From NCBI GenBank assembly GCA_902787595.1, contig CADAHD010000153.1, forward strand, positions 1 through 5,902: a stretch of 5,902 nt of DNA, written 5' to 3'. The stretch is from an uncultured Lachnospiraceae bacterium (GTDB taxonomy: Bacteria > Bacillota_A > Clostridia > Lachnospirales > Lachnospiraceae). Position numbers and translations under genes: made by a program. The notes beneath the pieces are model-generated. The model saw only the letters and a program-made list of their open reading frames with translations, did not search any database and had not been told where the DNA came from. Below are positions 1 through 5,902 of this stretch, piece after piece; positions within the stretch are counted from its first letter, which is position 1; every line of letters starts with the position of its first letter.

Positions 1-1937
1 TAAAAATTCCTGTTCTGATGCTTAACCTCCTCCGTCCATTTATCCACGTAATACTTCTTTGCATAAAGCTCACCGTATTTTTCTTTAACGATCCTGTAAG
101 TAGTATATACATCCAGTCCCTCAGCCGACCACAGCCCGTCATCCGAAACCTCGCAGCCCATGTCTCCCCAGTACAGGTGTATTATCTCATGCATGAAAGT
201 CTCGTTCTTATTACCGCCTTTATTATCATCTGACAGGGCCTGCGGAGAAAGGAAATTCTCGTCCATATACACATAACCATCCCCCGCGCCGCCTCCGCCG
301 TAGTCGTTACTGATCTGCTGTATCCGTATCCCTTCCGCGCCTTCGGCAAACTTAAGCTCCCCGTAATGCTCATTGCAGTATCCCATCACATCCTTTATGG
401 ACTCATCCAGCTTATTATCCCTGACAGTCTTCTCATATTTTTTTGCATACAGGAATTCCGTAACGCCATCCACCCCGTCTGTATTGTTAACACCCGACTC
501 TATAATGGGTACATATTCCCTGCATTCCCAGCATATACTGCCGTCTTCGTTTTCTACGGTCTTTTTGAGCGCTTTGCCCCATGACGTCGGGCAATGATCA
601 GCCGGAACATTTATGCGCACTACCGGCTCTTTTTCTGATGCAAGCCCCGGTGCCTGAGGCGCTACACATACATCGTCAAGTTTGATATAAGCACGACCTA
701 CGGAATCGCAGAATGTATAGCCCGATGTTCTGTACAGGGAATTTGATATCGCCGGATACCCTCCGTAAACGATAGTAAGCCTGCCCGTCTTTCTGTCCGG
801 ATTTTTTACGATCAGCTTTTTTACGCCCAGATTAAGCTTATTATTATCTTCGCTGTAATATTCGATGGAATGATCAAGCTTTTCTCCGTCAAGCGTTACG
901 CTCTTTACCTTGATCCCGCTTCTTATCTCAAACAGGATCTCACGTCTTACAACATCCGTAAGGTCCATATTCAGTTCGCCTTTAAGCGTCCCCAGCAAAG
1001 TATTGAATCTCACATCAGCCACACAGTTTTTACATTCGCCCTGATACGGAGCATCATACCAGTTATCATCATATGGCACGACCGCAGAATGATCCACAAA
1101 AGGCTCAAAAACAAACAGAAGAACTGCAGCACACAGACTCATCAGCGCAGGGATAAATGCAAGCGGTTTCTTAAGATTATATATAAATGACTTAAACGCT
1201 CCCAGGCGGTACTTTCTTATAAACTTAACAGACAAAAGATAAAACGCCAGACTAAGAAAAAACAGCGCTATCCTTGAATAATACAGAAACCTTAGCACCG
1301 ATACCGAACCATAGCAGTCGGACAGCTCAAAGATACACGGTATATTCCAACGCAGGAAAAGATCTTTTTCGCTAAGCGGTGAAAACTGTGATATCGTTAG
1401 GAGCAGGACCACGAGCAGTGACACGCTGACATTACGGGAGATATTGTACAGCCCGCAGCATACGGCTATTGTTATCCATACCCCCGGCAGGATATATACA
1501 AAGGAATAAAGGAAATACCATTTAAGCGTAAAAAGATAATCCATCCTTTTAATGCAAAGAGGCAGAAAAAAGAGCATGCATATAAGCGCCGCGAACGATG
1601 AAACTGTCATAAATGCGCAGATTCGGGCATGAGACACCGCCTTCTCATCCGTATACGCCCCCGTCATCTCTTCTGCGCCTTTTTTTATCGCTCTGTCAGC
1701 ATCGCTTATCACATACAGTCCCCATATAAGCGCTGCAGCGAAGCCTCCGAAGCCAAAGGGTATTATGACATTATTCGTCAATGAAGAGGTATACTCAAAG
1801 CCTTCTGCCATAAACATGCCCTTTACAAAAGCTGTGAATCCCAGACCAGTCATCAGGATATTCAGTATCATCGCAAGATATGTTTTTCTGTTCATAAGGA
1901 GTCTCTTTAACTCGACTCCCATAAGTTTAGCCCTCAT
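1..1937 (-). CDS. ABC-2-like permease fused to an extracytoplasmic M1-type zinc peptidase domain (3' end outside window)
   Basis: This frame stays open for 645 codons from the ATG at 1937 to the window edge, where the next codon begins TA, so the end is unseen. The N-terminal half is a membrane domain with about seven hydrophobic segments (roughly residues 20-42, 57-78, 105-129, 140-163, 170-185, 219-240, 258-281), beginning MRAKLMGVELKRLL as ABC-2-type permeases often do. Residues about 282-645 are hydrophilic and presumably outside the membrane. They carry HEIIH at 583-587 and WSAEG with Glu606, an exact HEXXH-X18-E spacing. This is the zinc site of M1 (gluzincin) peptidases: H583, H587 and E606 as ligands, E584 as general base. 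The catalytic Tyr region of M1 lies beyond the window. The start at 1937 is preferred because AGGGAGG sits 6 nt upstream; an in-frame ATG at 1943 directly abuts that site. The gene overlaps the ATPase gene by 11 nt, so the two are probably translationally coupled partners. The ectodomain is cysteine-rich. Family placement is firm for the zinc site and moderate for transport function. Confidence 0.88.
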   Translation of the reverse strand, partial: MRAKLMGVELKRLLMNRKTYLAMILNILMTGLGFTAFVKGMFMAEGFEYTSSLTNNVIIPFGFGGFAAALIWGLYVISDADRAIKKGAEEMTGAYTDEKAVSHARICAFMTVSSFAALICMLFFLPLCIKRMDYLFTLKWYFLYSFVYILPGVWITIAVCCGLYNISRNVSVSLLVVLLLTISQFSPLSEKDLFLRWNIPCIFELSDCYGSVSVLRFLYYSRIALFFLSLAFYLLSVKFIRKYRLGAFKSFIYNLKKPLAFIPALMSLCAAVLLFVFEPFVDHSAVVPYDDNWYDAPYQGECKNCVADVRFNTLLGTLKGELNMDLTDVVRREILFEIRSGIKVKSVTLDGEKLDHSIEYYSEDNNKLNLGVKKLIVKNPDRKTGRLTIVYGGYPAISNSLYRTSGYTFCDSVGRAYIKLDDVCVAPQAPGLASEKEPVVRINVPADHCPTSWGKALKKTVENEDGSICWECREYVPIIESGVNNTDGVDGVTEFLYAKKYEKTVRDNKLDESIKDVMGYCNEHYGELKFAEGAEGIRIQQISNDYGGGGAGDGYVYMDENFLSPQALSDDNKGGNKNETFMHEIIHLYWGDMGCEVSDDGLWSAEGLDVYTTYRIVKEKYGELYAKKYYVDKWTEEVKHQNRNF

Positions 1938-2805
1938 GCTCATCCTCCCTCTTTGCGCTGTTATGTATGCAGTAAAGATAAGCATCTTCCAGACTGGGTT
2001 CACACCTGTCCACATAGTCAGGAAGCTCTTTTGCCACGATGCGTGTCAGCACGCCGTTTCTGGTATTTATCTTTGATACTATCTCGCAGTCCTTCGGAAG
2101 GATATCATCCACCTTCCTGATGTATGAGCCCACATGATCCACGGTCTGTTCTATCAGCCCCGCAGGGCTTCCGTCAAAGAGTATGCTTCCGCCGTATATC
2201 ACCAGTACCCTGTTGCAAACGGCCTGCACATCATCCACGATATGGGTGGAAAGAAACACGATGCGCTCGGACGACATTTCCGAAAAGATATTCCTGAACC
2301 TGACACGTTCCTCGGGATCAAGCCCCACCGTTGGCTCATCCAGTATCATCAGTTCGGGATGTCCCATGATCGCCTGTGCGATGCCCACGCGTTGCTTCTG
2401 CCCACCGGAAAGATTTCCCACTCTGATCTTTCTTCTGTCGACAAGGCCGGTCTGTTCCATGGCCCATTCGATCTCTGCCTTATCCTTGATGCCCTTTAGC
2501 GCCGCCATATAATCCAGAAACTGCCATACCGTGAGTTCATCAAAAAGTCCAAAGGTCTGCGGCAGATATCCCAGCCTGCTCTTAAGCTTCTGTTCCTGAT
2601 CCAGCAGTTTCTTATCATCCAGAAGGATCTCGCCCTTCGTTTCCTTAAGTCCTGCTGTCATTAGCTTCATCAGTGTGGATTTGCCGGCGCCGTTAGGCCC
2701 CAGTATACCCACAAACTCCGGACTTTTTAAGCTGAAGCTGACGTCTGATAAAGCCTTCCTGCCTGACGAATATATCATGGTCACATTCTTAACATCGATC
2801 TTCAT
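1927..2805 (-). CDS. ABC transporter ATP-binding protein (ABC-2 / CcmA-like exporter type)
   Basis: This 292-residue protein is the cytoplasmic nucleotide-binding subunit of an ABC transporter and should power the permease-peptidase encoded just downstream. All hallmark motifs are intact: Walker A GPNGAGKST at 36-44, Q-loop Gln83 in LPQTFG, signature LSGGQ at 132-136, Walker B LMILDE at 152-157 with catalytic Glu157, D-loop through GLDP at 161-164, and H-loop His188 in STH. About 75 residues follow the core, a length usual for exporter ATPases of the CcmA/BcrA style. The acidic tail (KREDEHEG) overlaps the start of the next gene by 11 nt. An AGGAGG site with an 11-nt spacer supports the ATG at 2805. 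The gene is separated from the kinase gene by a candidate operator and terminator, which suggests its own control. The substrate cannot be told from this subunit. Confidence 0.95.
   Translation of the reverse strand: MKIDVKNVTMIYSSGRKALSDVSFSLKSPEFVGILGPNGAGKSTLMKLMTAGLKETKGEILLDDKKLLDQEQKLKSRLGYLPQTFGLFDELTVWQFLDYMAALKGIKDKAEIEWAMEQTGLVDRRKIRVGNLSGGQKQRVGIAQAIMGHPELMILDEPTVGLDPEERVRFRNIFSEMSSERIVFLSTHIVDDVQAVCNRVLVIYGGSILFDGSPAGLIEQTVDHVGSYIRKVDDILPKDCEIVSKINTRNGVLTRIVAKELPDYVDRCEPSLEDAYLYCIHNSAKREDEHEG
1944..1950 (-). promoter_or_regulatory. Ribosome binding site deciding the permease-peptidase start
   Basis: AGGGAGG on the minus strand lies inside the end of the ATPase gene. It immediately precedes one ATG (1943-1941) with no spacer and a second in-frame ATG (1937-1935) with a 6-nt spacer. 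Normal spacing favours the second. A third in-frame ATG at 1922 has no comparable site. Confidence 0.7.
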
Positions 2806-2816
2806 TTACTGAAATT

Positions 2817-2822
2817 CCTCCT
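2817..2822 (-). promoter_or_regulatory. Ribosome binding site of the ABC ATPase gene
   Basis: A full AGGAGG on the minus strand lies 11 nt before the ATG at 2805. It begins only 16 nt after the T-run of the hairpin at 2839-2864, leaving too little room for a promoter between terminator and gene. Confidence 0.85.
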
Positions 2823-2838
2823 GTTTATGAATACATCC

Positions 2839-2864
2839 AAAAAAGCAGAGCCCCGGGGCTCTGC
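2839..2864 (-). terminator. Intrinsic terminator (or 5' leader hairpin/attenuator) between kinase and ABC genes
   Basis: A perfect 20-nt palindrome (2845-2864, arms GCAGAGCC/GGCTCTGC around CCGG) is followed on the minus strand by six Ts (2844-2839). This is a textbook Rho-independent terminator in the direction of transcription. It would end the two-component transcript about 60 nt after the kinase stop codon. Because the only plausible promoter space for the ABC genes lies upstream of it, ABC transcription must pass through it, so it may act as an attenuator or as a 5'-terminal stabilising stem-loop. Confidence 0.85.
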
Positions 2865-2871
2865 CTGTATT

Positions 2872-2880
2872 TTTATCACA
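2872..2880 (-). promoter_or_regulatory. Candidate extended -10 promoter for the ABC genes
   Basis: On the minus strand TG-T-GATAAA (2880-2872) matches an extended -10, with four of six bases matching TATAAT. No good -35 is found about 17 nt upstream; that place (around 2895-2900) is occupied by the 11-bp repeats, as expected for a promoter activated by an OmpR-family regulator. The predicted start near 2865-2866 falls right before the hairpin. CATTAT at 2885-2880 or TACATT at 2887-2882 are alternatives. This is inferred from sequence only. Confidence 0.4.
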
Positions 2881-2885
2881 TAATG

Positions 2886-2929
2886 TATGTAGTGTGAATG
2901 GAGCTAATGTGGAGTTTATGTGAAGTTTA
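2886..2929 (-). promoter_or_regulatory. Four tandem 11-bp direct repeats, candidate response-regulator operator
   Basis: Read on the minus strand from the kinase stop codon, the sequence falls into consecutive 11-mers: TAAACTTCACA (2929-2919), TAAACTCCACA (2918-2908), TTAGCTCCATT (2907-2897) and CACACTACATA (2896-2886). The first two differ at one base; the third and fourth each match the second at 7 of 11. OmpR/PhoB-family regulators commonly bind direct repeats spaced about one helical turn, and such a regulator is encoded immediately upstream. The array lies just upstream of a candidate -10 and before the ABC genes. Binding by this particular regulator is an inference. Confidence 0.6.
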
Positions 2930-4252
2930 CTGCCGTAATATGAATTCAACACCATCCCCGGTATTGCCTATTGAGTATTCAGCGCCGCACATTTCGAAAA
3001 CCATGGCACTGATGTAGAGTCCCAGGCCGCTTCCTTCCTCCTTACCGGGATCCGCCCTGTAAAAGGCTTCAAAAAGATGCGGGATATGTTGTTCATCTAT
3101 ATGCGCGGGTGAGTTGATCAGCTTAAGCTCTGTTTTCCCGGACCCGCTGTCCTGCGGCTTATCAAGCTTGATCCTTACGCTGCCGCCTGAAGGCGTATAC
3201 TTGATGGCATTCCCCACCACATTACCGAGCGCTTTTTTTAAGAGCTTCTCGTCTCCCGTAAATTCCACATTATCCGGCACATCGTATGTAAGCTCTATAT
3301 TTTTTTCGCTGATCAGCGTATCATAAAAAGCGATCTCCTCATCAAGTATACCATCGATCTTTACCTTTTCTGCTTTACTGCCATCACCCATGTCTATATG
3401 TGATACGAGCAGTATCTCATTTATAAATGCGAGCAGTTCATTGAGAGTATCACTGCATTTTGCCAGATATTTATCCCTGTCCTTATACACGCCTATGGAG
3501 TCACGCATTCCGTCCAGCTGACCTATGACCACGGATATAGGCGTCTTAAGCTCATGGGATACTCCCGCAAAAAAGAGCATCCTTCTTCTTTCGCGCTCTT
3601 TCTCCAGATCTATCTCATTTTTCAGATACAGGTTTTTGTCATTCAGTTTGGACAGAGCAGCGCTCAGCTCATCAGAAAGCTTGTTTAAGCTCTTTGCCAG
3701 CACGCCTATCTCATCGTCCCTCTCATCCGGACAGTACCAGCCAAAGTCCTGCTCTGCCATCCTCTCGGCGATCTTACTCATCCTGACTATGGGCTTTTTC
3801 ATATAATACGAAAAAATCTTTGCGCCGATAAGTGAGATAAAAACAGCAAGCATTACCACTATGGGCAGGCATAAGCTCAGGCTGTTTTGAAAGGCCTGTG
3901 TCCTGTAACTTACAGGAGTTATACATAATACATATTCCCCGCTTCTGTCGGAAAAGCGCAGCGGAAAGAAGAGTTCCCCTTTATCGTTCTCCCTGAGGAA
4001 AGAATCCGCATCCGTAAGCTTAGTGTTTACTCCTTCACTTGCGGCGAATCCGTTTATCATTTCATCAGCCAGCGCATAGGTGGAATTCATGCAGCGCTGC
4101 GCCAGCTCCTCCGACCTGCTTTTTATGTACCCGGAATAGTTTTTTTCTCCCGCATATGGTGTCATAAAAAAGATGCACAGATAAAGAGCTGCTATTATGA
4201 GCAGTGATACGAGTAAAAAAGAAAAGAACATTTTTACAGACAGCTTCTTCAT
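2927..4252 (-). CDS. Membrane sensor histidine kinase (HAMP-HisKA-HATPase_c)
   Basis: This 441-residue protein is the sensor of the two-component pair and should autophosphorylate and pass phosphate to the regulator encoded just upstream. Order of parts: membrane segment about 10-30; a short extracytoplasmic region about 31-125 with no sensor domain I recognise; second membrane segment about 126-148; HAMP linker about 149-200; a charged coiled-coil-like stretch to 225; HisKA with phosphoacceptor His233 in FAGVSHELKTP; N-box around N344-N348 (NVVGNAIKYTP); F-box FEAFYR at 394-399; and G2 box GSGLGLYI at 407-414. The usual G1 DxGxG is replaced by NSPAH (380-384), with Asn where the nucleotide-contacting Asp normally sits; similar substitutions are known in VanS-like Firmicute kinases. 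The start codon overlaps the regulator stop (ATGA), so translation is coupled; the upstream AAGGCGG is a mediocre ribosome site. A role in envelope or peptide sensing is inferred from the neighbouring ABC genes. Confidence 0.95.
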   Translation of the reverse strand: MKKLSVKMFFSFLLVSLLIIAALYLCIFFMTPYAGEKNYSGYIKSRSEELAQRCMNSTYALADEMINGFAASEGVNTKLTDADSFLRENDKGELFFPLRFSDRSGEYVLCITPVSYRTQAFQNSLSLCLPIVVMLAVFISLIGAKIFSYYMKKPIVRMSKIAERMAEQDFGWYCPDERDDEIGVLAKSLNKLSDELSAALSKLNDKNLYLKNEIDLEKERERRRMLFFAGVSHELKTPISVVIGQLDGMRDSIGVYKDRDKYLAKCSDTLNELLAFINEILLVSHIDMGDGSKAEKVKIDGILDEEIAFYDTLISEKNIELTYDVPDNVEFTGDEKLLKKALGNVVGNAIKYTPSGGSVRIKLDKPQDSGSGKTELKLINSPAHIDEQHIPHLFEAFYRADPGKEEGSGLGLYISAMVFEMCGAEYSIGNTGDGVEFILRQ

Positions 4253-4914
4253 GAAAGCGCCGCCTTATAACCTATACCGCGGACAGTAATGATAAAATCC
4301 TTATCACCAAGTTTCTTTCTGATATTCTTGATATGGGTATCCACTATCCTGCTGTCATCATAATACTCATAATCCCATAATTCAGACAGGAGCGACTTCC
4401 TGGTGACCACCGCGCCTTTTGCCTTCATGATCCGGCTTAATATCTCGAATTCCTTAAGTGTAAAGTCCACCATCGTACCGTCTATGGTCACAATATGTGT
4501 ATTGGGATCAAGGACCACTCCGTTAAGCACAAGGCTTTCTTCCTCCGCAGTACCGCTGCTCCTGCGCAGTATCGCTTCTATCTTGCTGACGATTATAGGC
4601 ATTGATACGGTCTTTGAGATATACTCATCAACCTTAAGTTCATAACCGCGCATCTGATCCTCATCCGCAAAACGCGCAGTCAGCATTACAACGGGAACAT
4701 TGCTCTTTTTTCGTATCAGTTCACATAGAGTGAATCCGTCGATCTTGGGCAGCATGATATCCAGAATGATAAGGTCAAACTCCTTATCCTCCATGATATC
4801 GATCGCTTCAAGCCCGTTATCTGCTGTGGTAACATTAAAGCCGGCGTTTGAAAGATAGTTCTCCAGCAGTTCCTGATAATCCTTATTATCTTCAACAACA
4901 AGTATCTGTTTCAT
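4249..4914 (-). CDS. OmpR/PhoB-family response regulator
   Basis: This 221-residue cytoplasmic DNA-binding regulator pairs with the kinase encoded next. The receiver domain (about 1-118) has the acidic pocket E8/D9, phosphoacceptor Asp52 in LIILDIMLP, switch Thr79 in MLTA, and Lys101. The C-terminal winged helix (about 128-219) contains DFTLKEFEIL, a recognition-helix region DSRIVDTHIKNIRKKL (187-202) and the wing VRGIGYK. Length and order are normal for the family. One oddity is that Lys101 is followed by Thr instead of the usual cis-Pro of the KP motif. AGGTGA lies 6 nt before the ATG at 4914, which fixes the start. Its likely targets are the 11-bp repeats ahead of the ABC genes; no matching repeats are obvious before its own promoter. 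It resembles VanR-type regulators in style, but I assign no symbol. Confidence 0.95.
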   Translation of the reverse strand: MKQILVVEDNKDYQELLENYLSNAGFNVTTADNGLEAIDIMEDKEFDLIILDIMLPKIDGFTLCELIRKKSNVPVVMLTARFADEDQMRGYELKVDEYISKTVSMPIIVSKIEAILRRSSGTAEEESLVLNGVVLDPNTHIVTIDGTMVDFTLKEFEILSRIMKAKGAVVTRKSLLSELWDYEYYDDSRIVDTHIKNIRKKLGDKDFIITVRGIGYKAALS

Positions 4915-4920
4915 TTATGC

Positions 4921-4926
4921 TCACCT
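4921..4926 (-). promoter_or_regulatory. Ribosome binding site of the response regulator gene
   Basis: AGGTGA on the minus strand is followed by the 6-nt spacer GCATAA and then the ATG at 4914. Given the -10 just upstream, the untranslated leader would be very short, perhaps 10-14 nt. Confidence 0.75.
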
Positions 4927-4929
4927 GTA

Positions 4930-4938
4930 TTTATAGCA
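4930..4938 (-). promoter_or_regulatory. Extended -10 promoter of the two-component operon
   Basis: TG-C-TATAAA on the minus strand (4938-4930) is a strong extended -10, five of six to TATAAT plus the TGn element. No clear -35 is found at 16-18 nt, which is tolerated by extended -10 promoters. It lies between the terminator of the preceding gene and the regulator's ribosome site, so it most likely starts the regulator-kinase transcript. Confidence 0.6.
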
Positions 4939-4972
4939 TTTCCCGATCATTACAGCAGAATAGATTTTACTA

Positions 4973-5033: not shown

Positions 5034-5902
5034 TCACAGGACCTTCGCCGAAGCCGCGATCTTCTCAGCCTGTTCCTGTGTGAACATATTTTTAGCCAGA
5101 CTTACCATGTAGTAAGTATCAGCCCCCTCCTTAACATACCAGAACACCCAGTAGCAGCTGTGTTTCTCATCTTCACCGATCTTTACGCCCTGCTGCCCAA
5201 GTTCATAGATCTGCGCATGCGTATAAAGATCATGCTCCTCGGAAAACTCCAGGGCATACCAGCCGTCGGTGCGGCGTTCCATGGCGATAGTCTTTATATA
5301 CTCCTGAACGGTATGGTTATCCATATAGAAATGGGAATCCGTATCAAAATACGGCACATGCTGATCGGTAAATACAAGCTGCACATTTGATGCAGGCAGC
5401 CTGGTGATCACTCCGGAATAAAGCCAGGACGCCGGAACATCATTTTTATTTACCACGGTATATGCCTGCGGCATTATATATGTTCCCCCGTAATATCCGT
5501 TATAATCCGAATACATACTAAGGTTGTATCCCTCCGGCAGATCGACAGCTATAAAGTCGCCCGCCTGCGTTCCTGTCGGTAATATCGCAAAGTAATATGA
5601 GGAAGTGCCGTTTTCCCATTCACCGTACAGTTCGAATACCAGCGGCGTATCCGCGGGGATCTTCATGTAATTATCAATAACACCCCCGCCGCCTTCAGGT
5701 AAAGACAGGATCTCCTTAAAATTCTTATCATATGCATCGCTTTTGCCTGCAGCCTCTGAATCCCAGTACCTGCAGCTCATCTTTTTGGGTGCGTGATCCA
5801 GATGTATTCCCAGTGTGTCCGTATCTTTCTGCAGATCTATATGAGACATGATATCCACTGTGTCAAGGGGATGACCGCATTCGGCAGAGCCCCCGTAACC
5901 TA
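5034..5902 (-). CDS. Unrecognised protein, C-terminal part (5' end outside window)
   Basis: The frame is open from the window edge for 288 codons to a TGA at 5034. A GTG at 5858 could serve as a start giving 274 residues, but nothing like a ribosome site precedes it. The 14 codons upstream of it (GYGGSAECGHPLDT) read like protein, so the true start is probably beyond the window. I do not recognise a family with confidence. The visible part is hydrophilic, rich in Tyr, Asp and Gly, with no membrane segment. It has patches such as YSDYNGYYGGTY, aromatic clusters (CYWVFWYVKEG) suggestive of beta strands, and an end FTQEQAEKIAASAKVL. That tail loosely recalls the strand-then-helix ending of DUF4367-type extracytoplasmic domains, but this is only a resemblance. 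A signal peptide or anchor, if any, would be in the missing N-terminus. It is followed by its own terminator, so it is probably not co-transcribed with the two-component genes; any functional link is untested. Confidence 0.75.
   Translation of the reverse strand, partial: GYGGSAECGHPLDTVDIMSHIDLQKDTDTLGIHLDHAPKKMSCRYWDSEAAGKSDAYDKNFKEILSLPEGGGGVIDNYMKIPADTPLVFELYGEWENGTSSYYFAILPTGTQAGDFIAVDLPEGYNLSMYSDYNGYYGGTYIMPQAYTVVNKNDVPASWLYSGVITRLPASNVQLVFTDQHVPYFDTDSHFYMDNHTVQEYIKTIAMERRTDGWYALEFSEEHDLYTHAQIYELGQQGVKIGEDEKHSCYWVFWYVKEGADTYYMVSLAKNMFTQEQAEKIAASAKVL

Follow-up and report, generated by a model that had tools for sequence, protein, structure and literature searches.

BceAB-RS systems pair a ten-TM FtsX-like ABC permease, which carries an extracellular domain between TM7 and TM8, with an intramembrane-sensing kinase, and ABC permease/M1 aminopeptidase fusions, annotated mostly in Bacteroidota, reach ~1200 aa and have a larger number of TM helices than the protein described here. 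Lantibiotic resistance operons of the Cpr type encode a single ATPase with two six-TM permeases, together with a two-component pair, and in the nsr operon a separate membrane serine protease stands alongside the transporter (both from the available portions of PMC5786555). The fold classes, the regulators and the general idea of a transporter combined with a protease are already known; a literature search whose coverage mostly excluded subscription journals returned, among the papers it listed, no description of the fused, regulated module that we report here.

The module lies in the window, by which we mean the whole 5,902-nucleotide stretch of DNA that was analysed. Among its relatives, those with names belong to the Lachnospiraceae (MAGs from rumen and goat omasum, and strain NK4A179), as expected for the Clostridial host proposed in the initial annotation, and its nearest genome (G001) is 96% identical over window positions 1156–4947. 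All window features below lie on the minus strand. A kinase/regulator pair does precede the transporter genes on the same strand, as that annotation had stated: an OmpR-family response regulator (4249–4914; PF00072 and PF00486) overlaps by 4 nt a sensor histidine kinase (2927–4252), for which Pfam and sequence features define two TM helices, an extracellular segment of ~95 residues, and HAMP, HisKA and HATPase domains (HAMP at 24.1 bits, slightly below the cut-off of 25). An intrinsic-terminator-like hairpin (2843–2866) separates the end of the kinase gene from the ATPase gene, and a comparable hairpin occurs at the aligned position in L010, L011, L012, L013 and L035. The ABC ATPase (1927–2805; 292 aa; PF00005, E 4e-37) has intact Walker A, LSGGQ, Walker B and H-loop motifs, and its stop overlaps by 11 nt the start of a permease/M1-like peptidase fusion (3–1937), whose ORF begins at the ATG at 1937 and is cut at its C-terminal end by the window edge after 645 of ~738 residues.

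At the opposite end of the window lies the C-terminal part, 288 residues long, of a membrane protein resembling BlaR1 (M56; 5034–5900), assigned through a full-length relative (L010:642–2906, PF05569); the window stretch itself matched no Pfam family. In L010 a BlaI gene (273–638) precedes the BlaR1/M56 gene, both upstream of the regulator gene, and the M56-type protein carries a long additional domain beyond its M56 part. Since G001 has another gene at this position and its match to the window ends near 4947, the segment has been gained or lost. The BlaR1-like gene is a lineage-specific neighbour outside the core, and in the window lineage the BlaI/BlaR1 pair stands beside the kinase pair rather than replacing it.

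We determined how widely the fusion occurs by searching genomes at successive taxonomic ranks, with G001 included in every count. At E 1e-3, matches were found in 7/35 genomes of the genus, 17/397 of the family (including the non-member G359 and a fragment in G350), 12/295 of the order (three of them weak) and 31/398 of the phylum (strong only in G001, G1004 and G1019); at E 1e-20, 9/391 genomes of the class matched. These low counts at each rank indicate that the fusion family is scattered and uncommon. At least nine homologous proteins appeared among the candidates listed (7994), which is no measure of total abundance, and a plasmid search with the L038 fusion gave no match. G359 was not counted as a member (E 7e-4; the fetched locus has no fusion), nor were the weak order-level matches in G434, G471 and G485 and 28 of the 31 phylum matches, in which only part of the profile aligned. 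The G350 fragment, at a contig end with the ATPase and kinase adjoining, was kept outside the locus count.

Forty Bacillota loci were examined, the window itself excluded (one, in G1342, is split over two contigs). In all 37 loci whose upstream flank reaches 500 nt, the ATPase gene is directly upstream of the fusion, and a gene for a second, NosY-like half-permease is directly downstream in all 36 loci with enough flank. The coupling to an ABC ATPase noted earlier is supported. This fifth gene was missed by the initial annotation because it lies outside the window; it is known from the relatives. ATPase, fusion and second permease thus form a conserved core trio. Genome G402 carries the whole module twice, as divergent copies on separate contigs (L036 and L046), the first with a chloramphenicol-acetyltransferase family gene (PF00302; L036:4444–5136) between its kinase and ATPase genes. 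At L044 the kinase, regulator and second permease each appear split across two frames (L044:9050–11154 and 5257–6031), from sequencing error or decay, and the fusion frame is open.

Relatives extend the fusion to its full length of ~738 aa, supplying ~93 residues past the window end, among them the catalytic tyrosine, and so the remainder of the peptidase domain. For the L010 relative, which is 96% identical, AF2 (mean pLDDT 81.6) predicts seven long helices within residues 17–277, matching the seven or so membrane segments first counted; simple hydropathy on the same protein recovered six of the seven and missed the first. Residues 1–243 (1209–1937) are an ABC-2 (type V, NosY-like) permease half with six TM helices. 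TM7 follows at residues 258–277 (1107–1166; AF2 helix 258–277, hydropathy 259–277), and by the predicted topology it would place the ectodomain outside the cell. From residue 292 onward (3–1064), PDB folds and a profile match identify an N-terminal beta domain of M1-like type followed by part of a gluzincin catalytic domain. Over residues ~292–738 the ectodomain aligns by fold to LTA4H, IRAP, ERAP1 and the two-domain M1 enzyme of D. radiodurans, with a beta domain and a thermolysin-like catalytic domain both predicted, and the alignment profile matches LTA4H at a best E of 8.9e-10. An alignment profile was required for this: the window fusion searched as a single sequence had no PDB match at E 1.

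In the regulator tally, which covers the 36 of the 40 loci with enough flank (the other four are cut too close to the fusion), searching with the kinase/regulator pairs of the window, L015 and L047 located such pairs at 27/36 loci. Among these, L009 has the kinase alone at a contig edge, the L037 pair is downstream, the L044 genes are frameshifted, and the pairs of L097, L102 and L120 are distant matches (regulator 186–190 bits, kinase 156–166 bits). SapS-like kinase pairs occur at 2/36 loci (235.3 and 241.6 bits; cut-off 550) and BlaI (PF03965) at 4/36: in L096, L098 and L099 an M56 gene (PF05569; identified in L098 by phmmer only) lies between BlaI and the ATPase, and in L118 BlaI is alone. 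No regulator was found at the remaining 3/36 (L042, whose downstream side is cut, L101 and L115). Because BlaI/BlaR1-type and SapS-like regulators replace it in other lineages, the kinase pair falls outside the invariant core.

The three genomes with M56 before the ATPase contain 3, 5 and 7 M56 genes in total, few enough that chance adjacency to the ATPase is unlikely. On a quick, midpoint-rooted tree of 34 fusions, in which several forks are weak, the starred branches force three changes of the BlaI label, explicable either as gains or as a gain combined with losses; an equally low number came from 50 of 500 shuffles. Near the start of BlaI, L096 and L099 have TACA-NN-TGTA palindromes; none was found there in L098, L118 or L010. 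Inspection by eye also revealed a PIN-domain-like/antitoxin-like pair of small genes upstream of a BlaI-BlaR1 pair at L122:2151–2935. Regulators of these kinds typically belong to responses against cell-wall and membrane antibiotics, and the BlaI and SapS types suggest envelope stress generally, not peptides in particular.

Between the kinase and ATPase genes we found an operator-like element (2886–2925) of four half-sites near CTCCACA with an exact 11-bp period: CTTCACA, CTCCACA, CTCCATT and CTACATA start at 2925, 2914, 2903 and 2892, and are followed by an A+T-rich stretch and then by the terminator-like hairpin (2866–2843). OmpR-family regulators bind direct repeats of roughly this period. 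The two-copy pattern occurs once in the window and in none of 200 shuffles. An initial test, restricted to exact intergenic stretches and using three half-sites, gave p <0.05 in 15/16 loci (the exception being L015), with period 11 tied or beaten in L038, L040, L045, L121 and L015; over 220 nt, three half-sites gave p <0.05 in 14/22 loci (22 of the 27 pair-type loci). The four-half-site test used a 350-nt stretch, with settings chosen after some sites had fallen outside 220 nt, and a null of 400 first-order Markov resamples per locus. By this score the repeats are significant in 23/27 loci with the HAMP-type pair, 0/4 with BlaI, 0/2 with SapS-like kinases and 1/3 without a regulator; L009–L013 do not count as independent because the half-site consensus came from the window. 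Significant repeats are absent from the pair-type loci L015, L037, L048 and L097 and present at L102 and L120, whose pairs are distant. Period 11 is the best in 22 of the 23 significant loci (L100 is best at period 9), and the site lies 85–120 nt ahead of the estimated ATPase start in 20/23 (276 in L012, 252 in L038 and 146 in L100). The stretch before the regulator gene had such repeats in 0/6 loci tested. Genome-wide, the two-copy pattern was at the locus in five of six genomes, and its nine matches elsewhere equalled the nine of a reversed control pattern. The kinase-ATPase gap varies in length, and no recurrent small peptide gene was noticed in it by eye. In L012 (4853–5132) it exceeds the gap of near relatives by ~160 nt and by eye contains long palindromes, perhaps an inserted small inverted-repeat element beside the operator.

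Three loci bear on which regulator the repeats accompany. L101, in G1019, has the repeats and lacks an adjacent pair; another contig of the same genome encodes a regulator 62% identical to that of L039 (E 1.5e-84; next best 2.9e-50), adjoining a kinase that matches the L047 kinase at 405.6 bits, and the 13 kb fetched around this unlinked pair contained no relative of the transporter genes. The adjacent regulator in G394 has the same gap in score (64%, E 3.8e-93; next 5.3e-53). In G1004 (L102) the adjacent regulator scores ~E 1e-49 against the L039 regulator and the genome's best match is another (1.1e-56), so the repeats there go with a more distant pair. Together, the conserved operator-like repeats and the unlinked G1019 pair strengthen the case that the adjacent pair probably regulates the operon. 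Of the dedicated two-component system proposed at the outset, the adjacency and the likely regulatory link survive; the pair as an invariant part of the module does not.

We give an even chance to the reading that the operon encodes an ABC transporter that is induced by a signal and has an extracellular metalloprotease built into it, serving antimicrobial-peptide detoxification in the manner of a Cpr/LanFEG system with a fused protease. In this proposal the signal detected by the kinase would come from the envelope and would most likely be a peptide with antimicrobial or membrane activity, and the regulator would bind the four 11-bp repeats ahead of the ATPase gene and switch the operon on. 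Judging by positions, the ATPase-fusion-permease transcript would start close to the terminator of the regulator-kinase transcript. One subunit, comprising permease, TM7 and ectodomain, would pair with the second NosY-like half-permease and two copies of the ATPase; at the membrane surface the zinc protease of the ectodomain would cleave the peptide, which the ABC core would clear, whole or as fragments, out of the membrane.

The transporter core bears on this proposal, for and against, and on two alternatives. Both permease halves have the six-TM NosY/ABCG-like fold and are accompanied in the operon by an ABC ATPase, as in ABC-2/type V exporters, with identities to the matched NosFY/PmtCD chains of 9 to 15%. 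The second permease had only chance-level matches in a sequence search of the PDB; by Foldseek its top row was PmtCD (E 0.017), and no row reached E 0.001. Models of LanE and LanG had no match among 15 second permeases at E <=0.5, in a search where HMMER filters drop weak matches. Counting against the proposal, the ATPase scores 136.2 bits with the lantibiotic-protection model TIGR03740 (cut-off 309.75) and is also short of its best model, GldA (200.7 against 402.6). All 15 aligned second permeases share an invariant TAPFS.WSFG.Y motif following their first helix, from which the L101 copy, outside the alignment, departs.

The NosY transporter works with an extracytoplasmic partner, and NosY is the best fold match of the fusion's permease half. 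The ABC cycle might open or close the active site of the ectodomain instead of moving a substrate, so that ATP controls the processing of an envelope protein or of a cell-wall-linked peptide by an FtsEX- or NosDFY-like logic; the joining of the two parts through TM7, the 11-nt overlap with the ATPase gene and the precedent of ABC systems that activate extracellular enzymes (PMC11466899, as far as its available text goes) would all suit such mechanotransmission. We nevertheless think it unlikely: true exporters (PmtCD, ABCG and a mycobacterial efflux pump) also have the NosY-like fold, which hence expresses no preference for mechanotransmission, and no recurrent gene for a target protein was noticed at the loci by eye. 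Two half-permeases with one ATPase also resemble PmtCD-like exporters of small peptides (at a Foldseek E of only 0.017), from which it might be argued that the transporter secretes a pheromone or bacteriocin that the ectodomain trims outside. This we regard as quite unlikely; no small precursor gene that recurs was noticed when the locus listings were read by eye, a point that counts lightly against it.

The exact HEXXH-X18-E site of the initial annotation is present in the window as HEIIH (residues 583–587; 177–191) and the third zinc ligand Glu606 (120–122), both supported by motif and by a 34-row alignment, within the gluzincin fold predicted around residues 583–606; among 5000 composition-shuffled versions of the fusion protein, two contain the pattern. 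The X18 spacing is not family-wide: across 34 relatives it is 17 (1), 18 (7), 19 (6), 20 (16), 21 (3) or 23 (1). Both histidine ligands, Glu606 and Tyr674, the catalytic tyrosine beyond the window end, are kept in 33/34 aligned full-length members. Neither of the outcomes named at the outset as refuting the observation occurred: the gluzincin fold is predicted at the site, and homologues retain the zinc ligands and the neighbouring genes. PF01433 matches 19/19 members at E <=0.01 (best 1.3e-7) and scores 17.1 bits in the window, below its gathering score of 27.7; these weak but consistent matches make the fusion a distant relative of peptidase family M1.

The segment at the M1 GAMEN position (residues 548–560; 258–296), located by the 34-row alignment and by profile-profile alignment to 24 other M1-type ORFs, departs from this family. 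It is of the Gly-Gly-x-Ala type (Ala in 32, Val in 1 and Ser in 1 of 34), and the GAMEN glutamate is absent in 34/34. As controls, 27 of the 28 weak phylum matches gave loci, of which 24 held an ORF of >=380 aa with HEXXH-X18-E (468–700 aa; L066, L075 and L077 did not); all 24 have GME, and the profile-profile alignment sets their glutamate opposite the alanine of the fusion. This glutamate binds the free amino end of the substrate in M1 enzymes. Its loss therefore predicts a different substrate register, and the ectodomain is probably no classical aminopeptidase; judged from the alignment, the label M1-type would fit the fold and zinc site, as first proposed, and not aminopeptidase action. 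The loss suggests endoproteolysis, or recognition that does not depend on a free N-terminus, either of which would fit peptides that contain rings or are N-blocked. Glu560, nine residues beyond the GAMEN position and invariant in 34/34, could in principle assume the GAMEN role.

The sole exception at all four catalytic positions, L097 (L097:6409–8628, in G563), has lost both histidines, the zinc glutamate and the tyrosine, and retains the ATPase, second permease and kinase pair. Catalysis is thus not always needed, as would be expected if the ectodomain mainly bound or sensed a ligand and presented it to the permease or kinase, with proteolysis secondary or lost; a peptide-recognising role has been proposed for the extracellular domain of BceAB-type permeases (PMC11466899, in its available sections). 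Retention of every catalytic residue in 33/34 members across long divergence makes this very unlikely for the family. Nutritional scavenging by a tethered peptidase and transporter, which the M1-like fold might recall, is highly improbable given the ABC-2 exporter-like permeases, the envelope-antibiotic type of the regulators and the GAMEN loss. Nor was a gene for a substrate-binding protein noticed incidentally.

The anatomy, the conserved catalytic residues, the motif loss, the conserved operon and the repeats linked to regulator type are read directly from sequences or models, and from them we tentatively put forward a wider account, holding it somewhat short of an even chance: a defence machine of scattered Clostridia and their relatives may have arisen when an exporter half absorbed an M1-derived protease, which gave up its aminopeptidase anchor and became an endopeptidase for ring-bearing or N-blocked antimicrobial peptides, and its conserved core of three genes may have been plugged, apparently repeatedly, into three types of envelope-antibiotic sensing (the operator-bearing kinase pair, BlaI/BlaR1 and the SapS-like pair). 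If so, a single ABC transporter subunit would unite transport with proteolysis of an extracellular peptide, an M1-fold enzyme would have gained a new specificity, and the module would help to explain how gut Clostridia handle bacteriocins and host peptides. The 40-bp promoter element offers a direct handle, which should report the inducing signal without prior knowledge of what that signal is, and the differences in regulators among lineages make an envelope-stress role testable by comparison.

How, then, does the module relate to the described systems? It differs from BceAB-RS in having a NosY-like six-TM half with TM7 as its permease and a kinase with an extracellular segment of ~95 residues. 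The permease-half fold is shared with the type V transporters NosFY and PmtCD, whose matched chains have no fused peptidase, and the beta and gluzincin domains, the zinc site and the catalytic tyrosine are shared with the two-domain M1 of Deinococcus radiodurans (6a8z) and with LTA4H and IRAP. The Bacteroidota fusions likewise join a permease to an M1-like peptidase. With the Cpr-type operons (cprABC-RK, lctFEG-lcrRS) and nisFEG-RK, the module has in common one ATPase, two different six-TM permeases and a kinase with its regulator (PMC5786555, in the part available). In contrast to these, it bears TM7 and an M1-like peptidase on one permease, its ATPase is far under the TIGR03740 cut-off and its second permease has no LanE/LanG match at E <=0.5; because the ATPase fails this model, we do not claim membership of the Cpr/LanFEG family. 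The S. agalactiae nsr operon (SaNSR, NsrFP and NsrRK) likewise combines a membrane-associated protease on the outer side, an ABC transporter and a two-component pair (PMC5786555, same part), yet there NSR is a separate serine protease and NsrFP a BceAB-type transporter of 10 TM, whereas here a zinc protease is built into an ABC-2 permease.
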